Assembly (NCBI GenBank): GCA_947561395.2
Contig: OX387184.1
Location: 34,214,766-34,278,765, forward strand
DNA length: 64,000 nt
Direction of reading: 5' to 3'
Source of the DNA: Buxus sempervirens
Lineage: Eukaryota > Streptophyta > Magnoliopsida > Buxales > Buxaceae
Notes under the pieces: model-generated
What the model was told of the DNA's origin: nothing
The model's input: the letters and a program-made list of their open reading frames with translations, nothing else
Databases searched by the model: none
In this document: positions 1-59,779 of the stretch, in pieces
Layout of the letters: each line of letters starts with the position of its first letter
Position numbering within the stretch: position 1 is the stretch's first letter
Translations under genes and position numbers: made by a program

Positions 1-919
1 CTGTCTTTATATCGGAGATCGGTATTGCAAATGCATATCATGCTTGATCTCACTTATCTGTATGATGCTTTATTCGACGGATTACTTTTGGTTAATTTTA
101 AGCTAATTAGGGCTTAGCTCATTATGGATCCATAATTTAGCTAGTAAGTGAAGTCTGTCTAATTTGTTTGGCTAAAGTCTAGCTTCCTTCATGCGTTTCC
201 TTTATGTAGAGAGGCCTTCCATGAGGGAAGTGCTGCGAACTAAGAGGGATTTATTTTACGCGTTTCCTCTATATAAAGAGGCCTTCCATGAGGGATGTGC
301 TGCAGCAGCTTCGTTTCCACCCCATGAGGGGGTGAGGTCTATTATTGGCAGCAGTTACGATAGTGGTTCTCAGACTGGATTGATATCCGTTTCCACCCTT
401 GAGGAGGGTGAGGTCTTGTGATTTCCACCAAGAGACGATATATTGAAATCAGTTTACAGAGGTATCAGATTTGGCAGAGGTTCTCGGACTGGAACTGTTT
501 GGAGCTAGAACTTAACCTTACAAAGCGGTCAAATTTCACAAGTCCCATCTTATTATGTGATTTGATATTGTTTTGCCGGATTAGTCGGATTAATCGATTT
601 ATTTGTGGTTAGTCGTTGAGTATATTTTAATCGTGCATGTTTTAGAAGTTAAATTAAATATGTTTGAGCATGCATTGCTACTTGCTGAGATAGTCGTATC
701 TCATTCCTTTTGTTTTGTTTTGTTTTCAGATCGCAGAGAGGACGATACAGTCGGGTTTATGATTGGTTCAGGTGAGTTGGGGAAACTTTTAGTTGACTCT
801 GATTTTGTGATTGCCATTTCATGTTTTCCTTACTCTGATATAGCGATCTTGTGTATAAAAGTAACCCTTGGGGAACGAGTTACGGTTTTTACTACGTAAC
901 CCGGTTCCGGGGCGTTACA
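1..919 (+). mobile_element. 3' part of a TGTAA...TTACA type LTR, left end outside window
   Basis: The stretch ends in GGGGCGTTACA, the terminus shared by many LTRs in this window. Upstream are the same landmarks in the same order: a palindrome-like GAGATAGTCGTATCTC at 687-702, then 27 nt later a T-rich tract ending in CAG (729), then a short terminal segment with an ACGAGTTACGG box. No start is visible, so length and TSD cannot be tested; the next bases are CTAGT. It abuts an LTR in the opposite orientation and was probably inserted into it. Short open frames here are incidental. Confidence 0.75.
193..302 (+). repeat. Direct repeat of about 44 bp inside the LTR
   Basis: Two copies of a unit reading GCGTTTCC, then a TATA-like stretch, then GAGGCCTTCCATGAGGG and GTGCTGC begin near 193 and 261. 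They differ at a few positions. A related CCACCC...GAGG...GTGAGGTC pair follows at about 317-335 and 392-415. The tract is in the part of the LTR where related copies carry repeated hairpins, but I could not define stems with confidence. Confidence 0.6.
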
Positions 920-4744: not shown

Positions 4745-7529
4745 TGTAGAACCCCAGTTTTGTGTAGAAAAAAAAATATAATAAATAATAAAATAATAAA
4801 ATGAAATAATAATAATAGAATAAAAATAAACAAATGATAACAGTAGATAAAATAAAAGTATATGCACATATGGATGTATGTACAGGTTAAATCAACTTTA
4901 TTATTGCTAGAAATTTGTGGTCATTAGGGTTAAAGAAAATGAGGTGGAAATATTTATACGTAGGTCATATTCGGATCGGAAATAAATAAAAAATGGGTCA
5001 ATGGTTAAAATCCGGGAAAACCCTACACTAAGGAGGGGTAGAAAGGGGATTCCCAGGGTAAATGGTGAATTAGGTTAAACCCTCGCGGTGTATAAATAGG
5101 TAACTGATATAAATTTTCGGGGTTTTGGGGGAATGTTGTTGCTCTGAAATTAGGGCGGCTACTGTGGCGATTAGGGTTTCGCTGGGAAGAGATGAGAACC
5201 GCAAGAGTTGCTAGGAGTTTATTAGAGTCGGATTTCTGCGGGTTATCTCTCTCGCGAGCAGAGGAATTGTTCGGCTACCATTTCAACTTCGCGCGCACCC
5301 GGAAATCGCGATCGGCCGAATGGGGAAGAAGCTGTTTTTCTGGGATTAAGCGCATACGGTGAGTAGCACTGATTTACAACTGGGATTTGTGTTTTCTGTT
5401 TCTCTCGAGATTATTCTGATGCATGATTTATATATCACTGATAGTATGAGTTTTTCTGGTTTTCTGGTTTTCGGGAAATGACATGAACAGAGTCTCCGGA
5501 CTGAATTTTATCTTTAAGAATAAAAGTGTTTAGATTAAATCCAAATATGGTTGGGAAGTCTTCTGGGAGTATTAGGAGTGTACTGGAGTAGTTACAGACC
5601 TTCACAAACCGGCCAGTCATGTAGATCTCAAAATAACAGAGAAATGAAAACCACAGGGGGTATCCGCTCACCTCGCGCTCACCGGCGTTCACCTCGGAGG
5701 TAAGCGCCCCGTTAATAATGACCTACCGCCGATCCCGCGCCCACCTCGCGCTCATCTCGCGCGAAGTAGAAAACGAGGCGCCCATCTCGCGCGAATCTCG
5801 CGCCCACCTCACGCCCATCTCGCGCTCACCTAGCGTCGGGTGAGCGGCAGGTCGATTTTGCCCTTTTTCTTCACCGCCGACCGGCGCTCACCTCGCGCCC
5901 ACCTCAATAGGTGAGCGGCAGACCTATTTTGCTTCCCGAAATGGAATTTCTGATTTGACCAAGAGTATTTGCACTTCTTAGGGGTTAAACCACTTCACTA
6001 TTCACTTGGTTAGGAACCTGGGAAACCATTTTGCCTATGAAATTAATAGAGGAAAAATTTGTGAACCTCTTAAGAGTTTTTAAGTTGGGTTTAGGTTACT
6101 TATGAGTATTGTGCCGGACACCAAACTAGTAAGAGTTATCAGTTACTTTTCCTTGTTCTATACACTGTTTTGATTGAAAAGTTCTTGTATTTCTAGTTTC
6201 ACTTGTTGGAAACTTTATACGTATTGAAATGTTTTCTTTGGTATGAATGGATTGAGTTTTACTTTCATATGACTTGTGTTACGGAAATGAGAAATTACTG
6301 AATGTACTTGAGGTACTGCTTGGTCCAGAGGGACGGGTGATGAATTGTGATGAGAAATTACATGATGTGGAATGAATGGTTTTGTTTTGATATTGAAATC
6401 GAGATTATACGATGTTTACTGTTTTGGTCTAGCTTGTCCTGGATCCAGAGTCTAAGCTTAGTAATGTGATGTTATTGTTGGTTGTTGAAATTGCATGGCC
6501 TTGTGTGTTGCCACGACCGGTGTAGAGCAGCCAGAAACCCTGAGTAGGCCTGGTTGTCAATGCAGAAACCCGGGGAGTAGGCCTGCATTGGATGACGAAA
6601 CCCTGAGTAGGCCGTCATTTCAGAGTATCCGAAACCCTGAGTAGGCCGGAACTGTGTACATGGAGGTGTGGAGTGTCTACTTGGCATGTTTAATTTATCA
6701 ACTAAACGATAGTCATGACATTGACCAATGTTGGTATTTGATTTTGTTTGACGTGATATGTTTTATTCGCTGGTTGTTGGTATTTATGGTTCATGGAATA
6801 TTGTTTACCGATTATTGGGTATTGTTCTTCCCGCCGGTGTAGAGCAGCCAGAAACCCTAAGTAGGCCTGGTTGTCAATGCAGAAACCCAGGGAGTAGGCC
6901 TGCATTGGATGACGTAGTCATTTCAATATCAGAAACCCTGAGTAGGCCGGATATACATTTGGAGGCGTGGGCATGGTTATGAGAAGACTTTGTGTTATAT
7001 GACATTGGTGTATCTGGAATTACATCTTGAGATACGAAATTATGGTTATTCGCTATGTTGTTGTTAGTTAATCTTTATTTTATCGCATTCTTCGGGATTG
7101 GAAACAGATTGTTATTGTTTGACTTACCTGATGGTTTTCCCGCACTGATATGAATTGGATTATTGAAGTTTATTCGGCTTATTCGGAATATGCGTATTAT
7201 CGTCATTGTACATGGTTATAATCGTGGCATGTTTTAGAACTGAAATAAATGTATTTGTGCATGCATGTGCTGCTCACTGGGATATTCGTATCTCATTCCG
7301 TATTGTTTTGTTTTGTTTTCAGCTGCTCCTGGAGAGGACGATACTTGCGGGTAGTTACTTGGTCATGTGAGTTTTATTTTAGTTTGGGGAATATTTTAGC
7401 GCACTCTGTTATATAGTTATTGTTGTATTCATGTTTTTCCTTCACTCTGATATTGCGATCCCGTGTTTTATAATAACCTCTGGAGACGAGTTACGGGTTT
7501 TTCATGTGACTCGGATCCGGGGCGTTACA
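4745..7529 (+). mobile_element. Solo LTR (2785 bp) with TCATG target-site duplication
   Basis: It begins TGTAGAACCCC and ends GGGGCGTTACA. TCATG occurs immediately before (4740-4744) and after (7530-7534), so the ends are exact. In order it contains: an AAT-rich tract; TATAAATA at 5091-5098; a donor-like GGTGAGTAGCACTG at 5358-5371; a GC-rich tract of CTCGCGC/GTGAGCGGC microrepeats at about 5660-5925; two hairpin runs at 6527-6650 and 6844-6954; GGGATATTCGTATCTC at 7279-7294; and a T-rich CAG ending at 7322. It has no coding capacity. It closely resembles the LTRs of the element at 13334-21642, here in the opposite orientation. Confidence 0.93.
6527..6954 (+). other. Two runs of abutting hairpins with a conserved 17-nt loop
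   Basis: The loop GAAACCCTGAGTAGGCC recurs. Each copy is closed by a different stem and successive hairpins touch. Run 1: GCAGCCA/TGGTTGT (6527-6557), CAATGCA/TGCATTG (6558-6590), GATGAC/GTCATT (6591-6619), and a weak TCC/GGA (6628-6650). Run 2 repeats the first two at 6844-6907. The third stem has only GTA as loop (6908-6922), and the last is ATATC/GATAT (6926-6954). Wobble pairs fit the LTR sense strand. Related runs lie at 15730-15850, 16484-16600, 16790-16915, 19503-19610, 19806-19928, 23783-23904 and 57539-57629. Confidence 0.75.
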
Positions 7530-10450: not shown

Positions 10451-12810
10451 TGTAAAACCCCGAATTTCCCTTAAATAATAAATTAAATTAGTAAATAATA
10501 TTACCCAGAGTTATAAATTGATAGAACCATTTTAATATTGTAGGGGGTGATCAACTTATCGGAGATCCAGAAGTAGACGCAGATCTGACCGTCCGATCGT
10601 GAGATATCGAGGTATGTATTCTGAGTGGGCAAGGTGTATAGAAGAGTTGCATGGGAGATGCATAGGATCAGGGGGTATAAATATGTATAAAGAATTAACC
10701 TAATTCATATACTTGTATTGTCGCTCGTATTGAAGAGCCGCAAGCGACGAGTTGTTCAAGCGACCAAGGGAAGAAGAAGGAGAAGAAGAAGGAAGGGCTG
10801 GGCGTGCGTTCATCCCCAGAGGATTCTTCAGTGCAAGAGTTCGTCATTGTGCATAATAGAGAAGGAGGAATCAGCGTAGAGAGGTAGGTGACACCGTTTT
10901 GGTTTTAAATTTCGGATTTACCTCTGTTTAATTGCAATGCATGTTTCTATGATATGTAAAGTTGTATTTAGTTAGCTAAGCATGTTATAAATACATTAGA
11001 ATGAGTTTAGACGTGAAAAATCATGATTTAGAACTGTTTCTGTTCGATTTGGTGAGACCGCCGACCTCGACTGTGCAAGGCGCTCATCGGCGATCTTAGG
11101 CGCTGGTTAAATACTCGAGGACGCCGTGGACCGCGGGACGACGGACCGTGGGCGCTCGTAATTGCACTACCGCCGACTGATGACCGCCCGGAGCGATCCT
11201 GAGCGATCCCAGGCGCTCTCAGCAGAATTTCCAATTTTTCATAATTTCGAACCTAATTCAATTCTAAACTATTTTTAGACAATTTTAATGATTAATTAAG
11301 GTGTTTTAAGACCAAAATAAACTACCTAAATCCCTGTTTTACAGAAAAACAAATTAGGGAGATATTTAGAACATTAGTTGCCTAGTTTTGAAGGTAAACG
11401 AGAAATGTGATTTTGGAAAAGCCCAACTACTATTTGACTATCTAAACACTTTTAAATGGCATTAAAAATCATAAGACATTATAAAGAGAGTTCATAATCC
11501 GCAGGACGGAATAATGAAGTGAATGTACAGATATAACCATTATATGCCGCTAGGCACCAACCCTTATAGAAATATGATACTTTAGGGAATTTTGGAGTCT
11601 AGTGGGCATAGCTGGTTATGGATCCATAGTCGTAGCTAGATAGCTGAGGGATATGTCATTTGGGTTGAGTTACTCCTATATGCGACGCGCTTCCTTTGCA
11701 AGTTAGTTTGTCTGGGAAGGTCCTATGTCTGGAGGGACACCCCGGTGAGCCGCTGGTGATTCCCTGTACATGTGGATAAGCAACCACCTCCATGTATTGA
11801 TTCTGGTGCTGCATGCTGGTGGTACATACCAACTTTGATGGGTACGTGTGCAATAAGTCGGTGACTACGGCTCTTGTCTAAGCTGCGCTGCATGGGGCTT
11901 GAGTATCATTAGTAGCATCGCTCCTAAGTCGCACGGTGGTATAGCAATTGGTTGAGAATCATCTCAAAAGGTTTATCTAACTTTGTGAGTCCTACAATGA
12001 CACTGAAAACATAACGCTTGATATGATTACTATTGTGCACGTGCGGGATGCATGTGATTGGGATATTGATTGGATGTGACTGCTTAGTACATCCTGGCAA
12101 TGCATGGATTATGCTATTGATTTGTCTATTGAGATCTTATATTAAAACTTGTTGAAAATCATTTCTAGAACTGTTTATCAAACTGTTTTGTGTTCATGAA
12201 TAGTATAAATGATTATGCGAGCCTGATTTATCGATGTTGCTTTATCGTGCATGAACTGTTACTTTCCGTATATTAACTGTTTAATCATGCATGTGTTACC
12301 TACTAAGATATTCGTATCTCACCCTACTTCTATTCCATTTTTTTCAGCTGATACGCGAGAGGGGGATCTTTTAGACTTCCAGGGAGAGATAGCCGAGTAT
12401 TCGCCGAAGGATTATTATTATCCAGATCTTGTCTGAGGTGGATTGATGTTATAGACTTAGCATTTTAATTGGTTTATTATCATTAATTGGATTTGATGTA
12501 TGAGAGAGGCAAGAGAGAGTTAGTAACCAGTTCATTCTACCAGACTTTGATAATATTGATTGATGGTCAAGCTTCATGCTTGTTTGATGATTTTAATCTA
12601 CACTTCCGCACATACTTGTTTCCGCAACTCTGATAGTTTAATATATGGATTGGATTTACTTTCTTTGGTCTGGTATGTTATTGATGTTGTAATTGATATG
12701 GGCCAGTAACACCTCGGATTTGGTTGTTGAACTAAATTCGGGTTGTTACAGTAGCGAACCGGGTTCGGGTCGGGTGCCGGTTTGGACTGACCCGGGTTCG
12801 GGGCGTTACA
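10451..12810 (+). mobile_element. Solo LTR (2360 bp) with AGAGC target-site duplication
   Basis: It starts TGTAAAACCCCGAATTTCCC and ends CGGGTTCGGGGCGTTACA. AGAGC flanks both ends (10446-10450, 12811-12815). Modules: TATAAATA at 10676-10683; donor-like GAGGTAGGTGACACC from 10881; a GC-rich tract of GAGCGATCC/GGCGCTC units at about 11060-11225; a palindromic TATGGATCCATA near 11616-11627; AAGATATTCGTATCTC at 12305-12320; a CAG at 12347 followed by CTGATACGCGAGAGGGGGAT. It is the same subfamily as 48830-53667 and 50406-52810. It lacks the GAAACCC-loop hairpin run but has a TACATG...CATGTA stem near 11770-11805. Confidence 0.93.
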
Positions 12811-13134: not shown

Positions 13135-15152
13135 AAAATTCATTCTCTGTGTTCTGATTTTTGTCTTAAATTATTCTAGAGCAACATTTGTATCCTAGTT
13201 CTTCTTTGCAAGGTTTAAGACCTTTGTACTAATCACTATACAAATCATGGTTTATATTGAGTTGTATCGATTGATACGAACTAGTATTGGCTAGGGCTGT
13301 CAATGGGTCAAATATGGGTTATTGGGTTGAATATGTAACGCCCCGGATCCGAGTCACATGAAAACCCGTAACTCGTACCCAGAGGTTAACATAAACAACA
13401 GGATCGCAATATCAGAGTGAAGGAAAAACATGAATACAACAATAACTATACAACAGAGTGCGCTAAAATAATCCCAAACGAAAATAAACTCACATGACCA
13501 AGTAACTACCCGCAAGTATCGTCCTCTCCAGGAGCAGCTGAAAAACAAAACAAAACAATACGGAATGAGATACGAATATCCCAGTGAGCAGCACATGCAT
13601 GCACAAATACATTTATTTCAGTTCTAAAACATGCCACGATTATAACCATGTACAATGACGATAATACGCGTATTCCGAATAAGCCGACTAAACTTCAATA
13701 ATCCAATTCATATCAGTGTGGAAAACCATCAGGTAAGTCAAACAATAACAATCTGTTTCCAATCCCGAAGTGTAAAACCCCAGATTTGAGTAAAAACAAA
13801 ATAAAATAATAATACTAGAATAAACTAAACTAACAGTAACAGTAAAGAAAATAAACACATAATAACAGTAGATGAAAAAAAAAATAGTATATATATATAT
13901 ATATGCACATATAGATGTAGGTGCAGGTTAAATCAAATTTTATTATTGCTAGGGACTTGTGGTCATCAGGGTTAACAAAAAAAAATTGGAAATATTCGGA
14001 CCCGTAAATAAATAAGAAATGGGTCAATAGTTAAAATCCGGGAAAATCCCTACATTAATGAGGGGTAGAAAAGGGATTCGAGGGATAAGAGCGGGTTAGG
14101 TCAAACCCTGGCGGTGTCTATAAATACGAAGCTCTTATAAAATTTTCGGGGATTTTGGAGAAAGGTGGCCGCTCTAGAGAAAGTTAGGGCAGCAGTCCAG
14201 CGGGTTATCTCTCGAAATGGAATCCACCCAGGATGGCCGGAAGCTTGAAGAAGGTCTTCAACACGAGGTGAGTGGCATTGTTTTACAACCGAGGTTTCGG
14301 ATTATTTCGTATATTCATTGAATGATATCATGGTGTTGAATTTCATTGATATTGAGGTTTCTGCGCAACACAGTTACGGAGGGTTTTTGGTTTTGCACAG
14401 TGAAATTGGGGATAACTGGGAAATCATGTAGATTAAATTCAAATTAGGTTTGGATGTATCCTGGGAATGTTAGGAGGCTATATAAGTGGTTACAGACTGA
14501 AAAATTGCAGCCAGAGATGGATTTCTGGGATTAACAGAGACCTGGAACCGAGAATGACTTACCGCCTAGCTGGCGCTTACCTAGCGCCCACCTAGGAGGT
14601 GAGCGCCAAGAAAAACAGACCCGGCGCCGAGCTAGCGCCCACCTCGCGCCTAGCTCGCGCCTACCTCCAACTCTCGCGCCTATCTCGCGCTTTTCTCTCG
14701 CCCGTCTGGCGCTTAGCTAGCGCCCACTCGTCCACGGGTGAGCGCAAGCTTCATGTTAAACAAAGGGACTTACCGCCCACCTGGCACCCACCTCAGGGAA
14801 GTGAGCGCCCAGTAGTTTTCATGCAGAATCCTAAAATTTCGCAAGAACCAAGGGTGTTCTGGATAATAGGGGTTCTTCAACCACTTAACCAACAAATAGA
14901 TTTCGACATTAGAGGTAATAAATCTTGCTGGTAAGAACAATGGAGATAGGTACTAGTTTTAGTACAAGCTTATGAGGTAGGTGTGGAGAAATATTTCGAG
15001 GATGCTCGGGATGTTCACATACTAGGGCTTTATTCTAGTCCTCTTGAAATATGCATTGTTTGGTACCTGATTTGGTTTATTGAACCCTGTTTTGATGGCA
15101 AGTTTTGAATGAGGTTGTAATTATTATTTATTTGATTTCTTGTGTTAGTTTC

Positions 15153-15590
15153 TGTTCTGGTTGGAACACTTGTGAGTTTCTGTTCTGGTTGGAACACTTG
15201 AGTGAGTTTCTGTTCTGGTTGGAACACTGGTGTGAGTTGATGTTCTGGTTGGAACACTGGTGTGAGTTGATGTTCTGGTTGGAACAATGGTGTGAGTTTA
15301 TGTTCTGGTTGGAACACTGGTGTGAGTTGATGTTCTGGTTGGAACAATGGTGTGAGTTTATGTTCTGGTTGGAACACTGGTGTGAGTTGATGTTCTGGTT
15401 GGAACACTGGTGTGAGTTGATGTTCTGGTTGGAACAATGGTATGAGTTTATGTTCTGGTTGGAACACTTGTGTGAGTTGATGTTCTGGTTGGAACACTTG
15501 TGTGAGTTTATGTTCTGGTTGGAACACTGGTGTGAGTTGATGTTCTGGTTGGAACAATGGGGTGAGTTTCTGTTCTGGTTGGAACAACTT
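15153..15590 (+). repeat. 15-copy tandem array, 30-bp unit
   Basis: Each unit contains TGTTCTGGTTGGAACA followed by a variable CTTG/CTGG/ATGG and TGTGAGTT. The first unit is 28 bp and the rest are 30 bp. Because 30 is a multiple of three and the unit lacks stops in several frames, both strands show long open frames encoding repetitive peptides. There is no sign that these are genes. TTCTGGTTGGAA is near-palindromic. Three related units sit in the LTR at 23235-25480 (about 24053-24140). Confidence 0.95.
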
Positions 15591-15729
15591 GTGATGTGCA
15601 TGTCGACTGCGGTGTTTTATCGGTTTTAAACTTGATTTATCCTGAATCCAGAATTTAAGTCCAAGATGTGATGCCTTTGTCTATTGGGGAAATGGCATGG
15701 CCAGGAAGCGTTGCCACTACCCATGTAGA

Positions 15730-15850
15730 GCAGCCCGATACCGTGGGTAGTACTGGTTGTCAGTGTCGATACCCGGAGTAGGCCGGCACTGGATGACGAA
15801 CCCTGGGTGGTTCGTCATTTCAGAGTATCCGAAACCCTGAGAGGGCCGGA
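15730..15850 (+). other. Abutting hairpin run with covarying stems
   Basis: Same arrangement as in the LTR at 4745-7529 with different stem bases: GCAGCC/GGTTGT (15730-15760), CAGTGTC/GGCACTG (15761-15791, loop GATACCCGGAGTAGGCC), GATGACGAACC/GGTTCGTCATT (15792-15819, an 11-bp stem) and a weak TCC/GGA around GAAACCCTGAGAGGGCC (15828-15850). Against CAATGCA/TGCATTG of the other LTR, the third pair changes from A-T to G-C on both arms. Confidence 0.75.
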
Positions 15851-16913
15851 ACTGTGTACATGAGGTTGGGAGGCAGCTCTGGCATGTGGATTAACCAATC
15901 ACTCAATCGCAAAACATTGACCCGGTAGGAGCTCTGTGATATCCGGCTCGATATATACATCTATATACACATCTTGATGGATTGGGGTAGTATTAGGTTT
16001 TTCTTTTATCGGTCTCATCGAAGCCCCGTTTTACTTGTCGCGTGGTTATCCGATTCATAATTTAAATGGTAAAATGTAAATTTGAGCATGCATGTGTCAC
16101 TCGCTGAGATATTCGTATCTCATCCCCTCGTTATGGTTTGTTTTTCAGATGCGTTGGAGCGCAGGTACTTGCGGGTTAGTTCGGGGCCATGTGAGTTATT
16201 ATGTTGGGTTTTGTTTAGCGCACTCTATTGCATAGAAATATTTAGTTTCATGTTTTCTTTACTCTGGTAGTTTGATCCTGTTGTTTTATTAACCTCTGGA
16301 TACGAGTTACGGGTTTTCCATGACTCGCATCCGGGGCGTTACACGAAGAATGCGATAAAATAAAGATTAACTGACAACAACATAACGAATAACCATAATT
16401 TCGTATCTCAAGATATAATTCCAGATATACCAATGTCATATAACACAAAGTCTTCTCATAACCATGCCCACGCCTCCAAATGTATATCCGGCCTACTCAG
16501 GGTTTCGGATATTGAAATGACTACGTCATCCAATGCAGGCCTACTCCCCGGGTTTCTGCATTGACAACCAGGCCTACTCAGGGTTTCTGGCTGCTCTACA
16601 CCGGCGGGAAGAACAATACCCAATAATCGGTAAACAATATTCCATGAACCATAAATACCAACAACCAGCGAATAAAACATATCACGTCAAATAAAATCAA
16701 ATACCAACATTGGTCAATGTCATGACTATTGTTTAGTTGATAAATTAAACATGCCAAGTAGACACTCCACACCTCCATGTACACAGTTCCGGCCTACTCA
16801 GGGTTTCGGATACTCTGAAATGACGGCCTACTCAGGGTTTCGTCATCCAATGCAGGCCTACTCAGGGTTTCTGCACTGACAACCAGGCCTACTCAAGGTT
16901 TCTGGCTGCTCTC

Positions 16914-18916
16914 AACCCGTGCTAAACTCAATCCACCACTATGCGTGTTTCATTCTTCAATCTAGTATTCAATAATTTTAACAGAACTCACTGACAGGCC
17001 AATGAGAGTAGCTAATGGAGATATCCTTCCTGCAAAATTTCGTCGGGATCCTTAACAATTTCGAATTTAACCCTATTCAGAATGGTTTAGCTCATTTTAA
17101 GATCAACCAACAGATTTTTCCTTTTTTTTAAAAAAAACTTACCTTATGTCCTTACTTCTAAAATAAAACATATTTCTTCATTCAAAAACTTTCCATTCAC
17201 TTAAATGGAGACCCTAAATTCCACCTCTCTTATTTAACTTAGATTTCTACATTTATTCCTCAATACATTTTCAATTAACTCCAGACATAATTTTTCACAT
17301 AAGAAGAAATTCCTATAACTTATACCCTTGCAATACCAATGCACTAAGAAATAATTATACCTCCTCTAATATATTCTAAAACTCCCTTTAGGTTTAACCA
17401 TGTCATTTAAAATCTTTTTTTCAGCATCTATTTACTTGCTTTTATATTAAAGCACATCCATAAAATTTTCTGAAATAAATATCACTCATTCACTCCATAT
17501 TATATATTTATTTATTTTCCATCACCTGGCACACATACCCTACCTCCAAATCTTAATAAGCCATTCTTGAAATCAAGCTGCTAGTAGGCTTATCTCCTTT
17601 CCCTAATTCTCTGGTGTGCCTCAAGCTGAATTCGGTAACAATCTCTCCCAACTACGCTAGGTTAATTCTGACTTCACAGGCATTAAAGCTAAAATCCCAC
17701 CATCCCCATGTCTGGTAAATTCACAAGCTAATTTCTACTAGTACCCACAATATTCCACTAACCAACCATAACTGTAGTGATCTTATCCCATGGCACTTTT
17801 ATAACCTAATAATGATACATATAAAATGACTTGGATGTTTCAAGCTGGATAATAATAAATGTAAAAATATAATCTCTCCATAGATCCATTCATCCTCTTA
17901 TATTATAACTAGATACTGCGGAAAGTAAGATATCCTCCCCAACTATTGTAATCTGAAAATCTCTTAAACTTCAACCCAATAAGGTCATACCACCAAACTC
18001 AAGTGCACCTTCATGCTTACTTACATTCTATTCTGGTGGAGAAATTTTCCGAATGAAATCTCATCCTTGCCTTCTAAATTCACCACACTTCCGCTATGCA
18101 TTTAATAATTTTCCAAACTTACCCATGCATTCTCAATAATCCTTATGAGTATAACAACTTAAAATTTCTTATTCCCCATATTCATACCTACTAGTAAAAT
18201 AAAATAGCTCAGAAGAAAACAACATAACTTGCTGTCACCCACCCTTTCATATATGTGCACCTATATGAAGAATAGGAAAGAAATCATGCAAATTCCCTTC
18301 TAGTTTAAATTAAACAATATATCACACAACAGATTTCTTATACATATAAATAGTACAATACATACCCCATTTGTATAAAGCTTGATACCCAAGTAAATGT
18401 TCAGCATTGGCCGATGCCTCACACTACTAAAGTATGGCTATATACATCTGGCTCATCATCCAATTAAGCATACAATAGTTCGCATGCTTAATCAACCATC
18501 ACCAATTTCAAGCTTCAAATATATGAATTCAGCAATTAAAATCATCTCATAACTTCCACGTATTCATTTTAATGTTTATCTCAAAACTAACTACTTCTCA
18601 GAATCCTCAATTCCTTCTGAATGAAAATTCAATAACTTTTCCTTAATCATGCATAATTTATAATGTTAATAATAATAATAATAATAATAGTAATGCATTA
18701 TATCACAAATAACAAATCATATCACACCCTATATACAAAACATAGAAGATCCAGTATCTTACCATTAACCATATTGATTTACTGCTAGATCTAAAGAAAT
18801 AGCACTCTCAGCCTATATTTCCTATTTAAGGAATGCTATCTAACGAGCACACAACCCCCAAGTCCATCTTAGAGTTTCCTAGTCCTATGTCATGTTTCCT
18901 TTCAAAACTCTGATAT
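16914..18916 (-). mobile_element. Non-coding internal region of the LTR element
   Basis: About 2.0 kb of AT-rich DNA between primer binding site and truncated 3' LTR. No gag, protease, RT or integrase similarity is visible and there is no long open frame on either strand. It includes a short (AAT)n tract near 18666-18692. A polypurine tract next to the 3' LTR is not visible, consistent with loss of that junction. Confidence 0.65.
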
Positions 18917-18930: not shown

Positions 18931-21642
18931 TGTAACGCCCCGGATCCGAGTCACATGAAAACCTGTAACTCGTACCCAGAGGTTAACATAAACAACAGGA
19001 TCGCAATATCAGAGTGAAGGAAAAACATGAATACAACAATAACTATACAACAGAGTGCGCTAAAATAATCCCAAACGAAAATAAACTCACATGACCAAGT
19101 AACTACCCGCAAGTATCATCCTCTCCAGGAGCAGCTGAAAAACAAAACAAAACAATACGGAATGAGATACGAATATCCCAGTGAGCAGCACATGCATGCA
19201 CAAATACATTTATTTCAGTTCTAAAACATGCCACGATTATAACCATGTACAATGACGATAATACGCGTATTCCGAATAAGCCGACTAAACTTCAATAATC
19301 CAATTCATATCAGTGCGGAAAACCATCAGGTAAGTCAAACAATAACAATCCGTTTCCAATCCCGAAGAATGCGATAAAATAAAGATTAACTGACAACAAC
19401 ATAACGAATAACCATAATTTCGTATCTCAAGATATAATTCCAGATATACCAATGTCATATAACACAAAGTCTTCTCATAACCATGCCCACGCCTCCAAAT
19501 GTATATCCGGCCTACTCAGGGTTTCGGATATTGAAATGACTACGTCATCCAATGCAGGCCTACTCCCCGGGTTTCTGCATTGACAACCAGGCCTACTCAG
19601 GGTTTCTGGCTGCTCTACACCGGCGGGAAGAACAATACCCAATAATCGATAAACAATATTCCATGAACCATAAATACCAACAACCAGCGAATAAAACATA
19701 TCACGTCAAATAAAATCAAATACCAACATTGGTCAATGTCATGACTATTGTTTAGTTGATAAATTAAACATGCCAAGTAGACACTCCACACCTCCATGTA
19801 CACAGTTCCGGCCTACTTAGGGTTTCGGATACTCTGAAATGACGGCCTACTCAGGGTTTCGTCATCCAATGCAGGCCTACTCAGGGTTTCTGCACTGACA
19901 ACCAGGCCTACTCAGGGTTTCTGGCTGCTCTACACCGGTCGTGGCAACACACAAGGCCATGCAATTCCAACAACCAACAATAACATCACATTACTAAGCT
20001 TAAACATCTGGATCCAGGACAAGCTAGACCAAAACAGTAAAACATCGTATAATCTCAATACCAATATCAAAGAAAAACCATTCATCTCATATCATGTAAA
20101 ACTCATCACAATTCATCACCTGTCCCTCTGGACCAAGCAGTACCTCAAGTACATTCAGTAATTTCTCATTTCCGTAACACAATTCATATGGAAGTAAAAC
20201 TCAATGCATTCATACCAAGGAAATCCTTTCAATACATTTAAAGTTTCCAACAAGCGAAACCAGAAATACAATAACTTCTCAATCAAAACAGTGTATAGAA
20301 CAAGGAAAAGCAACTGGTAACTCTTACTAGTTTGGTGTCCGGCACAATACTCATAAGTAACCTAAACTCAACTAAAAAAACTCATAAGATGTTCACAAAT
20401 TTTTCCTCTATTAATTTCATAGGCAAAATGGTTTCTCAGGTTCCTAACCCAGTGAATAGTGAAGTGGTTTAACCCCTAAGTAATGCAAATACTCTTGGTC
20501 AAATCAGAAATTCCATTTCAGTAAGCAAAATAGGTCTGCCGCTCACCTACTGAGGTGGGCGCGAGGTGAGCGCCGGTCGGCGGTGAAGAAAATGGGCAAA
20601 ATCGACCTGCCGCTCACCCGACGCTAGGTGAGCGCGAGATGAGCGCGAGATGGGCGTGAGGTGGGCGCGAGATTCGCGCGAGATGGGCGCATCGTTTTCT
20701 ACTTCGCGCGAGATGAGCATGAGGTGGGCGCGAGCTCGGCGGTAGGTCGTTATTAACGGGGCGCCTACCTCTGAGGTGAGCGCCGGTGAGCGCGAGTGAG
20801 CGGGATACCCCCTGTGGTTTTCATTTCTCTGTTATTTTGAGATCTACATGACTGGCCGGTTTGTGAAGGTCTGTAATTACTCCAATACACTCCTAATACT
20901 CCCAGAAGACTTCCCAACCATATTTGGAATTAATCTAAACACTTTCATTTTCAATTATAAAATTAAATCCGGAGACTCTGTTCATGTAACTTCCCGAAAA
21001 CCAGAAAACCAGAAAAACTCATACTATCAGTTGATATATAAACCATGCATCAGAATAATCTCGAGAGAAACAGAAAACACAAATCCCAGTTGTAAATCAG
21101 TGCTACTCACATGAATGCGCTTATTCCCGAATGGTAAAACCTCGGCCGATCACTTCTCCGGCCACGCACGCGAATGAAAAATCTACCGAAACAAATCTTC
21201 TCGAGCAGAGAGAAATAACCCACTGAACTTCAGCTCCAAAACCCTTCTTTTAGCCCTTGCGATTCTTGTTCTTCACGAGCAGAAACCCTAGTCGCCACTC
21301 CAGCCGAAATCGCTCAGTTACAAAAATACGATGCGAGCATTCGAAAACCAAAACCCTAATTTCCCTTTAGTATATATATATACCCTCCACACGCTCGCAT
21401 ACGTATGGCCGCACGACAACTTTTTAAAAGCCTTGATCCTGTGCATGCTCGCCCACTGAAAACCCTACATTTTCCCGCATCCACTTAAGCTTATTCTCTT
21501 TGACAACTAATGATCAAAAATCTCCAGCAATGAATAAATTTTGATTAAGCCTGCCCATAAATCCATGTGTTCATACTTTCGCATATATTTTATTTTATCT
21601 ACTATTTTATTTATTTTTTTTACTCAAAACTGGGGTCTTACA
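18931..21642 (-). repeat. 5' LTR of the non-coding LTR element (2712 bp)
   Basis: On the minus strand it starts TGTAAGACCCC and ends GGGGCGTTACA. Modules in LTR sense: a TATA-rich tract at about 21370-21382; a donor-like GTGAGTAGCACTGATTTAC at 21110 leftward; GC microrepeats at 20535-20800; hairpin runs at 19806-19928 and 19503-19610; GGGATATTCGTATCTC at 19179-19164; and a CAG upstream of the terminal segment. Comparison of 18931-19367 with the other LTR (13334-13770) shows only about four differences, all C/T or G/A, so the insertion is recent relative to its surroundings. Confidence 0.85.
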
Positions 21643-23234: not shown

Positions 23235-25480
23235 TGTAACGCCTCGGATCCGTGTTCTTCATTAAAGATATAACACGTCTCCAAGGGGGTTAGTTAAGGA
23301 TCTCAATAATGGTGATCGCTGGATAATCACCCACATTTTATATCACATCAGAGTGCACAATTCAAGATTCCTATCCAGGCAAGTTATGAAATCATCAAAT
23401 ACATCAAATGGTCCCAAGTTTACTATCTTATTACAATCCTCAAAATTCAACTTAACAGTTTAAGACCAAACAACCTGCTGGACTAAGGTCGGTAGTAATA
23501 ATCCTCCTCCCTATATGTATTAGCCGGATCTACCCCCGTAGGCACCTCACCACGAATATCTGAAAAACAAAACAACAACGAGGGAATGAGATACGAATAT
23601 CTCAGCGAGTGACACATGCATGCAGAAATAGTTAACACAGTTATAAGACATGCTTCGACAAATAACCAACGTTAATAACAACGTAATTCCGATAACAACT
23701 CAAACCAGGTCAATGTCATGCATATGGTTACATTGATTAATTTACATGCCAAGTAGACACTCCACACCTCCATGTACACAGTTCCGGCCTACTCAGGGTA
23801 TTGGACACTCTGAAATGACGGCCTACTCAGGGTATCGTCATCCAATGCCGGCCTACTCCGGGTATCAGCACTGACAACCAGGCCTACTCAGGGTATCTGG
23901 CTGCTCTACACTGGTCGTGGCAACACACAAGGCCATGCAATTACACCAATAAACACATACCATCACATTACTAAGCTTAACAAGGATCCATGGGAAGCTA
24001 AACCCAAACCGATAAATAATTGTTTAAAATTTTGCATTTAGTACACATCACTCGTTGTTCCAACCAGAACATCAAATCACACCAGTGTTCCAACCAGAAC
24101 ATCAACTCACACCAGTGTTACAACCAGAACATCAAATCACAAGAAATCAAGTAAATAATCTTTGCAATTCAATTCAAAACTTGCCATCGAAACAGGGTTT
24201 AATAAATCTAATCAAGTACCGAGCAGTGTACAATTCAAGAGAACTAACATAAAGCCCCAGTGTTTAGATATCCCGAACATCCTCGAATTATTTCCCAACA
24301 TCTACTTCATAAGCCTTTACGAAACCTAGGATCCATCTTTAATGTTCTCATAAGCAAATTTTTATCTCTAATGTCGTAAACGAATATTTTGGTAAGTGGT
24401 CAAAGACCCTCTAGCATCCAAAACCCCTTTATTTTACTAAATTATGGGATTCGGCAAGAAAACGAACTGGGCGCTCACATCCTGAAGTGGGCGCCAAGTA
24501 AGCGCCAAGTGAGCGGTGCTGGATTCATAAAAATAAGGGTGGTGCTCACTCGTGGATGAGTGGGCGCGAGCTCGGCGCCAAATGGGCACGAGGATTTTAA
24601 GTGGGCGCGAGCTGAACGCTGAGTGGGCGCTAGCTCGACGCCGGGTCAAACTTTCTGAGCGCCTACTTCCCGAAGTGGGCGCAAAGTGGGCGGTGACCCA
24701 CTGCGATTTTCAGTTCTCTGTTAATCCCAGAACTCCAACTCTAGCTGAATTTTTCCGGTCTGTAACTACTTATCTAGTCTCCCAATACTCCCAGGACACA
24801 TTCAAATCTATTTTGGATTTAATCTATCATGATTTCCAATTATCCCCAATTCCACTGTACAAACCCTCCGTAACTGTTTTTTGCCCAAAAAACACCGAGA
24901 ATACTTCAATCATAAACAATGCATTCATTCAACCAAATACATGAATAAACCCGAAAACTCGGTTGTAAAACAGTGCCACTCACCTTTCGATGCTCCCAAG
25001 TCCTGGAAACGAGAAACCCAGAAAACCCCAAACCCGATCGGCCGTCGGCTTGCTCTAGTCGAACAGGGGTTCTGCTTGCGAGGGAAAAAGCTCTTCCGAA
25101 CTTCTTCAAGTTCAACTAAACTTCCCGGCAGCAAGTTTTCCTCATCTCGCCTCTCCCACAGCACTTCTCCTGCTCCTCTCGAAGAGCCTTAAACGAAAAC
25201 CGCAGCCGCAACCCTCTCAATCTACTATACGCATATTCGGAACAAAACAAAAACCTAATTCTTAAATTATTTATACCTTCCGCAATACGCTTGGACTGCT
25301 CGACGAACCCTTGTATTTCTGATGTAGTGCACGCGCGACCACCGAAAACTCCTACATCCACACCCTATTTAGTAGATAGTTATTATGAAAATAACTTTAC
25401 AATTTTTATCTATTATATTATTATTATTTATTTTTATTATTTTTTTTCCATAAAACCTGAAAAATAAACGGGGTTTTACA
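23235..25480 (-). mobile_element. Solo LTR (2246 bp) with ATATC target-site duplication
   Basis: On the minus strand it starts TGTAAAACCCCG at 25480 and ends CCGAGGCGTTACA at 23235. ATATC flanks both sides (23230-23234, 25481-25485). Modules in LTR sense: GGTATAAATAATTT near 25274; donor-like AAGGTGAGTGGCACTG from about 24985 leftward; GC microrepeats at 24465-24715; three copies of the TGTTCTGGTTGGAACA unit at 24053-24140; hairpin run at 23904-23783; GAGATATTCGTATCTC at 23603-23588; CAG at 23562-23560. Open frames around 24880-25190 are incidental. Confidence 0.92.
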
Positions 25481-41059: not shown

Positions 41060-44000
41060 TGTAACGCCCCGGATCCAAGTTACGTAGAGAAACCGTAACT
41101 TATCTCCGAAGGTTAATATATAACCTAGGATAGCAATATCAGAGTGAAGGCAAAACATGAATAAATCAATAACTGGATAATCAGAGTGCACTATAACCCA
41201 AGCTCAACGATAAAAATACCATAACCAATGCTAACTCACATGAACCAATCATATACCCGCTAGTGTCGTCCTTACCAGAATCTGAAAACAAAACAAAACG
41301 GAAAAGAATGAGATACAAATATTCCAGTAAGCAGCACATGCATGCTAAAATACAGTTTATCAGTTCTAAAAACATGATACAGTTGTAAATCATGCAACAG
41401 TAGCAATAATACATCAATTCCGAATAATCTGAATAACCCAACAATAAAAACATCGCTCAGTACGAGATAACAAGAATAATCCAGTATAACGATTATATCT
41501 GTATCAATCAAAATGACAGTCGATAAGTCACTGCAGGACTCATGAAATAAGACTGCCTTTAACTAGTGTAAGACCATGCTCACTATGCCACCTCCCGGCT
41601 TATGAGCGAAGCCGAGCTAATCGGTCATCGACTTATTGTAGGAGAACCCATCCAGATACAGTAATGGGTTAGCATGTACCATCCTAACATAGCCGCAATC
41701 GACCAAATATAGAGAATGCCTCATCGAGATACACGATGGAACGCGTGCGTGAACAAAGTGTTACGACTAGCAAAGAAACAATCCTTTCCACTATCTACCT
41801 CCTAACATGGATCCATATCGAGCTATGCCTACTAGACTCTAAAACCAAAACCAACAGTGAAATCCAGTAAGCACAACCCGTCTCAATCTCAATCATATCA
41901 GCCCGAGCTACACGGGCATCTCTGAGATACACGGAGGCAACAATATCCCGATATACACAGGCATCAAAATCTGTCTCTCCAAGTACATGGAGGAAAACCA
42001 AATCCAAACCAGAAAACCAATAATTCATATTCAATTTAAAATCCTCTTTCCGTAGAATCCACATAAAACTAGTTCAAATGTAACAATTACATAATCATGG
42101 CAATCTCGCCTAATCCAAGCTGAAATCCAATAAGAATAATCAAATTTCAAATGTATTCATAGGTTCAGAAAATTATGGACACAAATTATTCTAAACAATA
42201 AGTTTTATAAGTGTTTCCTTTAGTTTCAGTATAAATCCCCTTTACAAGCCAACTAAGTAAAAGTGTCATTCTCTGTTAAACTGGCAAATTGATTCTTAAA
42301 AGTCAGAATTTAATCCTAATATTAAGTTCAGGTTGGATCTACTCATTTCGAATTCAAACAGTAACTTTTTTCTGTAGATAATTTCCTTATAGTTCAAAAT
42401 TTAGTAAGATTTTCAATTTCGGTTCAATCAGTAACTTTGAAGGTAAAATCTCAGAACAAATTCTTATTATGAATCTAGATATGCACTCCACATCTTTACA
42501 ACTTTAACTTAAATTTATTTTTTTCAACTAATCTCTATCATGATCCCAAGCAAATATGATCTGAACCTCAAAAGTAACATTCATATAACTCAATTTATAA
42601 TTTCATTGCACCTAGTTCACCCATATCCAAATCTGAAATATTCACCATGCTATTTAGGCTAAAACCCCTCAATTCTATACTCATATCGGTATCCATTTAT
42701 CCACTCCAATCTCCCTCTATTTTCTCTAATTTATCCTTTAGGTAATTTTCCCCAATTAAGTTTTGCCATGTAAAATTTGTATGTGCTAGAGAGGTTCAGC
42801 ACTCTAAAAATACCCAAGTTCTTAATTAGACCTGTTTCTAATTTCTTTTACTTATTACTATAGATATGTTCTCAAAAACCAGTGTTTCTTAGTCCTAGAA
42901 GTCCCTTAATAACTTCTCATTAAGCTCCCTAAATAACCCCCCACAGATTACTTAAAACCAAGATAAGTGTGCTGGTAGAAAGCTGGGCGCCAACCTCTAA
43001 GGAGGTAGGCACCACTCAGCACCAACCAGATTTGTGATGTAAAATGGTTAATACAATAACATCCAGGTACTTCAAATTTCATCTAAAATAGTTCCCAAAT
43101 GTAAACCCAAATTAGCTCTCAAAGTGGGTTTAATAGGAGTTTGCAAAATATGGGCTGCTGAGAGGGTAGGCGCCCCTCAGCAATACCCAGAACCAGAACA
43201 AATTCACCAGAATATATTGCTTTTAGGATTGACATATTCCTATTCTCAATTACATTCCCTAATAATCTTCAAGTAACCCCTTACAGCACTAACTAGATTT
43301 GCAAAGTTTAATTGGAAAACAGCTGGGCGCTGACCACTGGAGTGGTTGGTGCTGCCACAGCAATACTCAGCGCACCCTCCTATTTTCTTTAGGTTTAGGT
43401 GTTGTTGATATCATTCGATCAATACTGCCCTAATATTTCATGTTAAAACTTATTTCACTAAATTCCTAACACTCTAATAATGACTATAACATCCATTTGA
43501 AATTAATTAAGTCATAAATCAGTTGCCATAACCTTTGCTGCACATAGATCGTTGTAATAAAATTTTCTGCGACCAGCAACTTGAAATCAACTTCCAAAAT
43601 GGTTTAATCCAATTTTTCTCCTATATTTCCCCTTCCAACATTCTCCAAAGCTTCAAATAAAATAGTAACCATACTTGTGAATTCAATTAGATCAATATTT
43701 CTACTGCTCAAGTCCTAGGCGCCAAAAAAAAACCATTGAGAACAGGGTACAGCAGATTATGTTCGAACAAGACTGATCTACTAATTCACCTTGAATATAT
43801 TTCCAGCCAAATTCTAACCCCTTGAACAATCAATATACAAATTTTTGGTTTAATCCATCAATAAAATCAAATTCTAATAACTTAGTCGTCAGATCCATTG
43901 TAAAATAGAGTGCAGATTCCAATTTCGTTTATAGAAATTCCATAGTTCAAATCAATCATCCAAAACAAAAGTGAAAGTTGCTACTTACCTGACAGAAGCA

Positions 44001-56879: not shown

Positions 56880-59779
56880 TGTAACGCCCCGGATTCGTGT
56901 TGTTCATTAAAGATATAACACGTCTCATGGAGGGTTATGTATGGGCCTATATTTCATTTATCAATACTAATTATCAACATGGGACATTCATTAGAGTGCG
57001 GAAATATATATTCTTTTATTTAAGCGTGGGAATTCTAATCAATTATGAATGTTAACAGTTCTAATCAAATTTGAATATCAATCTAAACCTTATTCAATAC
57101 AAGTTTACAAGTTCAAAACCATCATATAAACCTACTAAGATCTAAGGAACATAGTAATCCTCCTCCCTATAGTAATCTACTGGCTCTACCCCAATGGTCG
57201 GATCCTCATCGAGAGTATCTAAAAACAAAACAAAAACAAACGCAATGAGATACAAATATCTCAGCAAGTAGCACATGCATGCAGAAAACAATTTACTTCA
57301 GTTCTAAAACATGCCATGAATAATAATCGATCATGAATAAATAATAGGAATTATCATCAATTCGGAAATCAACAAGTTCTCAATGATAAAGTAGTACAAT
57401 TGTCCAAGCAACAATAATAAACCATTCACACCGTGGCCAATGTCATGTAGTTCACTAATATTGAGTAATTTTCATGCCGGAGCGACATCCAAGCCTCTTT
57501 GTACACAGTCCGGTCTAACCATAGACTAGGTACTCTGAAATGACTGCCTACCCAGGAACTTGTCATCCAATGTTAGCCTACTCCGGGTTTCGACATTGAC
57601 AACCCAGCCTATACGAGGATACGGGCTGCTCTACACTGGTCATGGCAATACTCATGGCCATGCAATTACCCCAATAAAGCCAACTCATTACATTACTAAG
57701 CTTAAGTCGAGGATCCGGGACAAGATAGACCAAAACTTAACTCAAAACCATTACCTCTAATCACAAAGCAACTTGCAAATAAAACCACCAACCTCTTGTG
57801 CAACCATACTAAAAACAAACCATCTTTATCATGGGTCACTCATGACCAAAACAATATCTCATAGAAATCCAAATGTAATTTCTAAATCAAAGGACAATAT
57901 TCAAACCAATCTTTGTAAGCAAATAACTCAAGAGAAACCTCTTTATAAAATCTGACCAACATGTAAAAGTTCAATAAATTCCAGCCCAAAAGTAATACCA
58001 GATCTGAAAACTCAGCAATTAAAAAATGACTTTAAAATACATTAAATCAACAAAGGTTCTACTCAATGAATGATATCAGTGTATGGAAGGGTTTTCTAAT
58101 TTTATTCCTTTATGATCATGTCTAATAGTTCTATTCTCACACCCTTATTGTAGCTGTAGAGATTCTTTTAATTAAACCAGTTCAGGTTCTGATTAAGCTT
58201 AGGTTAAGTTCTATGAACAATAATCAGGTGATAGGAATCAGACATTTAGATTACTAAGTGATCAGCCTCAACTCTCCAAATTTCATACACTTAAGTCTTA
58301 ATTTACTTCATTATTAACTATCACCACAACAAGTTTAGAACACTTAATTAGATGTCCTAAAGTAGCAATTAGAGTTAAAAGCTTGAATTAACTATCCCAT
58401 GAACTCAGCCGCACTAGGCTGTAACTAAACCAAATGGGTGCCAACCTCATCCAAGGTCAGCCATCCTTGGCGACCATGAGCAATCACTATAAATCCCAAC
58501 CTTTAATCACTTATATGCTCTCAATATTTATTGGTATGAATTCGATAGATCAAATTTACTTAGAACTAATGTGAACATCTTAATTAAACTCTTAGATAAG
58601 CCTTTGAACAATTAAACTAAAGAAATTAACTTAAAAATGATTAGCCGCTCCTCTCTTTGGTTTTTGAATGGGGTGCTGACCTTCTGTCAGTCAGCCGCGC
58701 TCAGTGCCCCTCAGTCCTCTCAAGTTTTTAACTACGGCTGAGTATCGCTGACCTCATGTTAGTCAGCCGTACTTAGCACCCAAGGCTATGTTCCTCCGAA
58801 AATCAATTTAAACACTGCTAATTCAAGCTAACCAGGACTGAACCAATTTTAAAACTCCACAACTATTTAATCCTGCTCATAATACTTCTAACAACCATCT
58901 ACAATAGATTTGGATTTAATTCCATCAAAACATGCTTCGATTCACTAAATAATTCTCAAAAACATTCTCAGTCGATTATACTAATTCACTGCATATAAAC
59001 TCCTTTCAAAACATGCATTAGATTGCAAATCTAACGTGAAAACTAGTGCTACTTACTTGCTTAGATGAACAATTCTTCTAACTCCGATTTCTCTGATCCA
59101 AACACCTCCGAAAGATCAAAACCAGTGACTGATTGTTTTCTGATTCATCACCAATACCAAATCTGAATTCTATCCTTGCTTCACACTTAATTTGCTCACA
59201 ATTGACGAATTAAACTGATCTTACCTGATCTCTTGTAGATCTGCTGCTGAAATGATCGCACCTCCACAAATTCCCAGTCTCTAAGATCTCTAATCAGCAA
59301 ACACTTCACCTCCGCTTAGCTCCAATCTCCTCCAACTCAAGCAAACCCTCAGAACTCCTCTTCTCACCAGCAGCTTGCTCTCAGAACAATCTCAAATCAA
59401 CAAACGAACCCGAAGCTTGAAATGAGCAGCCTATTTATAAGCTTCATTAGCGCTCAAATCCTTTCATGATCTGCTGGGTGCTCACCCACATATCCTCTCT
59501 ACACCAACACCTCTTAACCATTGATTATATACATTGCCACTCCAGCAACTGATTAATCTAGCACCAACATCCACTCATATAAATTAACATCATTCTATTT
59601 ATTCAATTTAATCTCTTATCAATCACTTGCCTTAAATTACCTCTCTTCTCATTAAATTTCCAGAATTTCCAAAATTTCCCTTGCTCCTCAGTTATCTGGA
59701 AGTTCACCAATACAACTTATTTAAAATAATTAAATAAATCCTCACAATTAATATTAGCAAAAATTTTGGGGTTTTACAC
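56880..59779 (-). mobile_element. Solo LTR (2900 bp); near-match TSD CATGT/CATGA
   Basis: On the minus strand it starts TGTAAAACCCCAAAATTTTT at 59779 and ends GGGGCGTTACA at 56880. Flanks CATGT and CATGA match at four of five bases. Modules in LTR sense: TATAAATAGG near 59440; donor-like AGTAAGTAGCAC from about 59057; a GC tract at 58800-58670; hairpin run at 57629-57539 (GCAGCCC/GGGTTGT, CAATGT/ACATTG, GATGAC/GTCATT); GAGATATTTGTATCTC at 57262-57247; T-rich acceptor-like tract ending TAG near 57219. It is inserted in LTR 56136-61684. Confidence 0.88.

Follow-up and report, generated by a model that had tools for sequence, protein, structure and literature searches.

Tandem hairpins with a shared loop in plant Ty3-type long terminal repeats: a candidate RNA packaging domain

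Introduction

What keeps stems complementary when their sequences differ, hairpin by hairpin and copy by copy, around one repeated loop in non-coding DNA? The question is raised by a stretch of 64,000 nucleotides from Buxus sempervirens (hereafter the window; G000:C4:34214766-34278765, in contig OX387184.1 of assembly GCA_947561395.2), in which an earlier note had described abutting hairpins with a 17-nt loop in several long terminal repeats (LTRs) and had suggested that they act as RNA. Ty3-type retrotransposons make up a large share of many plant genomes, and to our knowledge how they select their RNA for packaging is largely an open question. Here we follow the hairpins through the assembly (676.5 Mb in 247 contigs), all comparison being confined to this one plant genome. 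As judged from the compared copies, they form a compact array with a shared loop, complementary stems, a preference for the sense strand at the level of lineages and loops that tend to change in concert. We tentatively propose that a large group of plant Ty3-type LTR retrotransposons carries this array in its transcripts as a cis-acting RNA packaging domain, a reading that we favor while granting that it may well prove wrong.

An array of four hairpins in the LTRs of a Ty3-type element

The window contains nine hairpin modules distributed over six LTR copies, which we term A1, A2, A3, B, C and D (Table 1); the earlier note had counted at least five copies. Each module follows a plan of four hairpins (H1 to H4) in which H1 abuts H2 and H2 abuts H3, with H4 following a few bases after H3. 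Most loops are GAAACCCUGAGUAGGCC or a near variant of it, each carried on its own distinct stem, and the more diverged loops are those of H1 and H3 in B and of H1, H3 and H4 in D. Across the window GAWACCCNGAGTAGGCC occurs 18 times, compared with no occurrence in 100 dinucleotide shuffles. The loop and stems lie where they had been placed, including the extended third stem, which is that of B. Some details needed correction: the run at 16484-16915, listed as sense, is minus-sense, and the first-stem variant GCAGCCC/GGGTTGT exists but belongs to D, while H1 of B combines its divergent loop with a loop-adjacent C-T mismatch.

A1, A2 and A3 carry two modules each, and in every second module (b) H3 reads GATGAC-GTA-GTCATT, its stem retained and its loop lost. 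Within the loops the first G and last C can pair, and an inner CC/GG has been retained; H1-H3 together have six pairs of this sort, each of them present in 106-110 of 114 sampled copies (see below). The four outer-stem pairs (TGTA/TACA) are kept in 108-114 of the same 114, in 59 of which the search anchor fixed these bases. In the minimum-energy folds of single modules, A1a, A2a and B each form H1 to H4 in full, and A2b and A3b form the corresponding hairpins; in A1a and A2a the outer stem closes a junction bearing the four hairpins, and B, A2b and A3b fold similarly. In A1, B, C and D the distance from the start of the module down to the LTR end is 616-1006 nt.

The hosts are LTRs of a Ty3-type element with gag, reverse transcriptase and RNase H. 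A1, B and C are solo LTRs with TG...CA ends and matching 5-bp target duplications, and the earlier description of the hosts as non-coding LTRs is supported. At 13334-16920 B is nested in A3 with a clean 5-bp duplication, and the uninterrupted A2 shows what the site looks like when empty. In one element of contig C1 (C1:18728150-18731200), Pfam identifies Retrotrans_gag, RVT_1 and RT_RNaseH, each in separate pieces and of Ty3 type; gag was searched as two pieces, and Retrotrans_gag passed the cut-off in the second. At the pol end of this element Pfam reports SH3_Tf2-1 alone; read by eye, the end is chromodomain-like and resembles that of the chromovirus lineage Tekay, to which the element may belong. 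A primer binding site, TGGTATCA(G/A)AG, adjoins the LTR end in A2 and in element L154, and we take the corresponding tRNA to be the initiator-Met tRNA. In L154, which covers the C1 element above in four pieces (C1:18727150-18732950), TGGTATCA comes after the LTR end, and a leader of about 155 nt then runs to the gag ATG. Directly 5' of this ATG (L154 ~989-1002; C1:18728138-18728151) the leader reads TTTTGTGCTTACAG, which resembles a 3' splice site.

Table 1. Hairpin modules, host LTRs and related features, in window coordinates
Feature	Position	Strand	Remarks
Solo LTR A1	4745-7529	+	Ends TGTAGAACCCC...GGGGCGTTACA; target duplication TCATG flanking both ends
LTR A2	18931-21642	-	Primer binding site follows LTR
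LTR A3		-	Split by inserted LTR B
Solo LTR B	13771-16343	+	Target duplication CGAAG; nested within A3
Solo LTR C	23235-25480	-	Target duplication GATAT
LTR D	56880-59778	-	Flanks TCATG/ACATG, one base different
A1 module a	6521-6660	+	
Outer closing stem, 5' side	6521-6524	+	TGTA; pairs with TACA 6657-6660; from minimum-energy fold
H1	6527-6557	+	GCAGCCA, 17-nt loop 6534-6550, TGGTTGT
H2	6558-6590	+	CAATGCA, loop 6565-6583, TGCATTG
H3	6591-6619	+	GATGAC, loop 6597-6613, GTCATT
H4	6621-6654	+	CAG..TCC, loop 6631-6647, GGA..CTG
Outer closing stem, 3' side	6657-6660	+	TACA
A1 module b	6838-6960	+	H1' 6844-6874, H2' 6875-6907, H3' 6908-6922, H4' loop 6932-6948 with longer stem
A2 module a	19786-19938	-	
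A2 module b	19487-19623	-	
A3 module a	16767-16912	-	
A3 module b	16468-16604	-	
B module	15724-15860	+	Third stem 11 bp; H1 loop divergent
C module	23783-23914	-	Loop variant GATACCC
D module	57497-57639	-	H1, H3, H4 loops diverged
Family E analogous array	41590-42005	-	At least seven hairpins written out: six TGTA(T/G)CT loops, one TGTACT; GGATCC palindrome inside
Family F probable analogous array	190-430	+	CTTCC-ATGAG-GGAAG, CACCCC-ATGAG-GGGGTG, CACCCT-TGAGG-AGGGTG; from one copy
Palindromic hairpin upstream of array in A1	6431-6458	+	AGCTT / CTGGATCCAG / AAGCT; read by eye
UUCG hairpin	7278-7295	+	TGGGATA-TTCG-TATCTCA; U-rich tract and CAG follow

Stems differ between hairpins and copies yet remain complementary

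We assembled a list of 13 distinct arm pairs, omitting identical arms, H3 of B as well as H3 and H4 of D, whose loops are different, and the loop-less H3 of the second modules. In these pairs 80 of 91 positions pair (66 Watson-Crick and 14 G-U) and one of the 11 unpaired positions is A-C, in agreement with the claim that the stems vary and stay complementary. Arms taken from different hairpin positions show 42% pairing, and when the right arms were re-dealt 100,000 times no trial reached 80 paired positions (maximum 76), a figure that is not a strict probability because the arms share descent. Since four unrelated stems directly flank one loop, with no choice of register, there is little doubt that the hairpins are what is kept.

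For comparison across the genome we drew together five window modules (A1a, A2a, B, C and D), ten loci from pattern searches, 60 modules from contig C1 picked for variety among the first 100 of 3,809 places, 30 found via the diverged module L042, and 20 D-like modules. Removal of one chimera (L034), one rearranged locus (L001) and nine duplicates (L002-L004, L006-L010 and L101) left 114 rows. The chimera, at C1:18802457-18802990, passes from an A-type to a G-type LTR inside the array, as if by a template switch during reverse transcription. A tree was built with FastTree, changes in the H1-H3 stems were mapped on it by parsimony, and branches leading to at least four tips were counted as deep.

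Most changes on deep branches retain pairing on the sense strand

On the deep branches, 22 of 25 stem changes retain pairing, two break it and one starts from an unpaired position; at the tips 97 retain it, 80 break it and 11 start unpaired (22:2 versus 97:80, Fisher p = 0.0003). When the register was slid by 1-8 columns each way (16 slides), 0-52% of the deep changes were kept, compared with 88% in the true register. Read on the antisense strand, pairing is kept in six of the 25. Deep changes from Watson-Crick pairs go to G-U ten times and to A-C once (p = 0.012). Over stem positions 1-5 of all 114 copies there are 408 G-U cells and 11 A-C cells, the former count being inflated by four H1 bases that the search anchor held constant in 59 copies. 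Consensus folding with RNAalifold, measured against column shuffles, gives z = -7.75 for H1-H3 on the sense strand (0 of 100 shuffles as low) and -1.08 on the antisense strand (15 of 100); for the whole module the values are -4.45 and -1.64. These results lend partial support to selection on pairing, better on the sense than on the antisense strand, in the lineages that spread.

Related arrays carry loops of their own

Loops of one array tend to change together between lineages while their stems differ, as far as aligned copies can tell. In the A family, loop position 3 read across the four hairpins of 64 modules is AAAA in 29, TTTT in 11 and ATTT in ten, and is identical in 40 of the 64. A second LTR family in the window, E, carries an analogous array on another loop. 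Among 30 copies of E (the window's own and 29 fetched, from a genome search that scored 40 of 1,830 candidates), the median copy has seven TGTA(T/G)CT loops and one TGTACT, and the hairpin CATCG-TGTATCT-CGATG is intact in 25; RNAalifold gives z = -2.98 on the sense strand (0 of 100) and -1.07 on the antisense strand (14 of 100). L168, a single relative of E, has an array with TGTACT five times and neither TGTATCT nor TGTAGCT. Three of its hairpins can be matched to those of E, and all three show compensated stem changes: the stem CATCG/CGATG has become CACTG/CAGTG, with two double changes; AACCCATT/GATGGGTT has become AACCCATC/GGTGGGTT; and a closing G-C has been replaced by A-U. Family F has a probable array of the same kind. 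In the LTRs of families G and H (L155-L158, L161, L162 and L167) a palindromic hairpin is present and no single clear repeated loop could be made out. We also considered kissing contacts through the GGCC of the A loops and set them aside as not general, the UGUAUCU and AUGAG loops having no such palindrome.

The array is abundant, well conserved and apparently undescribed

Exact matches to the loop pattern number 14,419 genome-wide (7262 + 7157), with none for the reversed control, and the anchored module pattern has 3,809 matches versus three in its control. In 59 C1 copies, with gaps counted as a state, the major allele has a mean frequency of 0.94 within the module, compared with 0.73 for the upstream and 0.59 for the downstream flank; the contrast is somewhat exaggerated, since module anchors were used to find the copies and the flank alignments contain many gaps. 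No other part of the stretch compared in these copies is as well conserved as the array. Pairwise, A1 (5000-7529 compared) matches C at 88% around the module, dropping to 76% close to the 3' end of the LTR and to 68% in one earlier stretch; with D, identity is 77% around the module but 83% close to the 3' end.

Rfam 15 gave no match at or above the gathering cut-off in the 64 kb, and on 6480-7000 it gave three matches (E 1.2-4.4), none overlapping either module; the match to a described RNA family that would have counted against the earlier note's reading was not seen in Rfam. A hammerhead or other ribozyme as the identity of the array found no Rfam support. A two-loop pattern had no match in IMG/VR, the loop sequence searched as text in the open literature returned no paper, and no LTR hairpin array of this plan was described among the papers listed in subject searches of that literature.

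A palindromic hairpin and other neighbors in the LTR

Near the array stands a palindromic hairpin. Of the nine LTRs inspected for it, seven have the core GGATCC, while B reads GAATCC and H reads GGATCG. Families E, F and G carry TATGGATCCATA-like palindromes with AGCT nearby, near 41810 (-), 130 (+) and 11625 (+), respectively. The palindrome lies upstream of the array in A-D and F and inside it in E. A tight palindrome pattern has 20 exact genome matches versus none in the control, and nine of 14 fetched loci start with GTCTAG, like E and G. This hairpin is a possible RNA dimerization site.

Farther downstream, the ten LTRs compared share, with substitutions, a CATGCAT block, a hairpin and a U-rich tract ending in CAG or TAG (besides A1, for example at 12290-12340 (+) and 57240-57275 (-)), which are among the most conserved LTR parts. 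The loop of this hairpin is UUCG in six, UUUG in three and different in one, and the U-rich/CAG block resembles a 3' splice site or a poly(A) region. LTRs B and C also hold a 30-bp minisatellite, GTGTGAGTTTATGTTCTGGTTGGAACACTG, with about 15 copies in B and three in C (15142-15586 and 24056-24141). In the 5' half of the LTRs are 11-bp GC-rich GCGCCCATCTC-like repeats (5778-5831, 14624-14727 and 20626-20690), where the lowest z values for sense folding are -4.6 (A1) and -6.1 (B).

Discussion

How might such an array serve the element? We suggest a model in which it would be transcribed as part of the element RNA and its shared loop would be bound by a single trans-acting factor, for which the Gag/nucleocapsid of the element itself is the likeliest candidate, so that the array would be a multivalent packaging site. 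The nearby palindromic GGAUCC hairpin would be the dimerization site. With a multivalent array and a dimerization palindrome together, the LTR would hold a domain like the retroviral packaging signal, psi. The short leader between LTR and gag, measured in one copy, would fit such a domain lying inside the LTR.

A number of our results weigh against this model. Among the 12 deep changes whose starting state is paired, the register slide of +5, the 52% case above, retains 11 (11:1), and in an earlier branch count slides of -3 and +5 match the true register's ratio of kept to broken among changes starting paired. With all internal branches pooled and outer stems included, G-U against A-C stands at 21:14 or 23:13, which is not significant; the split by depth and the split into core and loop-proximal positions are post hoc, chosen after this pooled count, and the slid-register and antisense controls came later. 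The claim that G-U rather than A-C appears on the LTR sense strand is supported at the level of lineages. In a tree-aware covariation null of our own construction, similar to R-scape, no individual pair is significant, and the best structural pair (H1 position 7) ranks 13th of 22,578 with an E of about 46 false pairs as good. The RNAalifold structure of the 114 rows contains H1 and H2 and omits H3. Single sequences fold no more stably than shuffles (A1a, z = -0.7 sense and -1.5 antisense), and because of this we leave stability out of the evidence; in minimum-energy folds the array is absent from C and D and incomplete in A1b and A3a. In the 59 close C1 copies the antisense alignment (z = -3.71) outscores the sense (-1.98), which leaves the diverged subfamilies and the deep-branch count as the basis of the strand claim: equal antisense support, which would count against an RNA, is absent from the deep changes, but the closest copies favor the antisense strand. 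The consensus structure of family E is a larger fold holding only some of the array hairpins, and one E hairpin keeps the different loop TGTACT. The upstream flank of the 59 copies, which contains the palindrome, aligned poorly and gave no structure. Finally, if the array lies in U3, it would be present solely at the 3' end of the RNA.

Other explanations deserve consideration. The same structural and strand evidence would be expected of a same-strand RNA element read by a host factor or acting in RNA processing (export, stability, splicing or 3'-end formation), and the position of the array upstream of the conserved UUCG/UUUG hairpin, U-rich tract and CAG in ten LTRs speaks for it. Because the loop differs between families within one genome while the plan of the array persists, a factor that diverges with the element, such as Gag, fits better than a host protein; this is not decisive, and we regard a host factor or processing role as somewhat unlikely. 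The reversal of strand preference in the close copies would instead suit a DNA-level enhancer, in which tandem repeats of about 30 bp in U3 bear a transcription-factor site as their core, GAAACCCTGAGTAGGCC, and the flanking inverted repeats are incidental or aid protein binding. The unit is indeed tandem and about 30 bp long, and AAACCCTRA resembles what we take to be the plant telo-box. A precedent exists in the BII boxes of Tnt1, which, according to an excerpt of PMC3316501, bind defense-induced factors. A DNA site, however, needs no complementary flanks, yet the differing flanks remain complementary, and H3 of the second modules has retained its stem and lost the loop that would be the site. 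Nor is strand preference expected of a double-stranded DNA repeat: the lineage changes favor G-U on one strand and sense pairing on deep branches, although the 59 close copies do not. We consider an enhancer unlikely.

It is also conceivable that the array has no function of its own, its short inverted repeats having been multiplied by template switching or slippage in reverse transcription and inherited by descent. The copies are related by descent, the structure is tandem, and the chimera L034 switches family inside the array. Slippage, however, duplicates whole units and would not surround one loop with stems that differ and yet are complementary; pairing survives 22 of 25 deep changes, compared with 97 kept and 80 broken at the tips, and the array is conserved above the rest of the stretch compared. 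This account is already disfavored, and we judge it very improbable.

Returning to the packaging model, a further step, which we regard as doubtful, would make the loop, switching together across an array, a barcode that lets the Gag of each of the coexisting LTR families tell its own RNA from that of the others, so that the LTR would carry a self/non-self code. If that were true, truncated or non-autonomous copies could carry the sorting code too. Being compact, built on a defined loop and present in LTR copies by the thousand, the array is a concrete and testable candidate packaging signal, and the loop differences between families amount to a natural experiment on specificity. For annotation pipelines it would serve as an RNA landmark within LTRs, and it points to structured RNA in an LTR region usually regarded as promoter DNA.

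Structured RNAs that act in cis are known from LTR elements; an LTR-borne array with a family-specific repeated loop has apparently not been described. Hammerhead ribozymes occur in the LTRs of plant retrozymes, which thus share with our elements the presence of structured RNA in plant retroelement LTRs. We know of no stem-loops of the trans-activation response (TAR) or polyA type that form tandem arrays with one repeated loop. The R-region stem-loops of retroviruses are alike in placing structured RNA inside the LTR, and conservation in long R regions has been linked to stem-loops (PMC3601003, in excerpt). The BII boxes of Tnt1 resemble the array as boxes in a plant LTR (PMC3316501, in excerpt). 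They are DNA binding sites, whereas the flanks of the plant array are complementary stems with a strand preferred at the lineage level. The BII boxes are laid out in tandem, at about 31 bp. In the psi of murine leukemia virus (MuLV), a palindromic stem-loop is followed by stem-loops with GACG tetraloops. In alpha- and gammaretroviruses such tetraloops take part in packaging, and palindromes are dimer linkages (PMC516450, in excerpt). MuLV psi lies in the 5' leader of the genomic RNA, binds Gag and is required for packaging; the plant array, for which these roles are a proposal, differs in lying inside the LTR, in its at least four hairpins, in its 17-nt loop (about 5-10 nt in the other families) and in the loop being family-specific. 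What the two have in common is a row of tandem hairpins that share one loop sequence, with a palindromic hairpin beside it that in the plant LTRs is a putative one.

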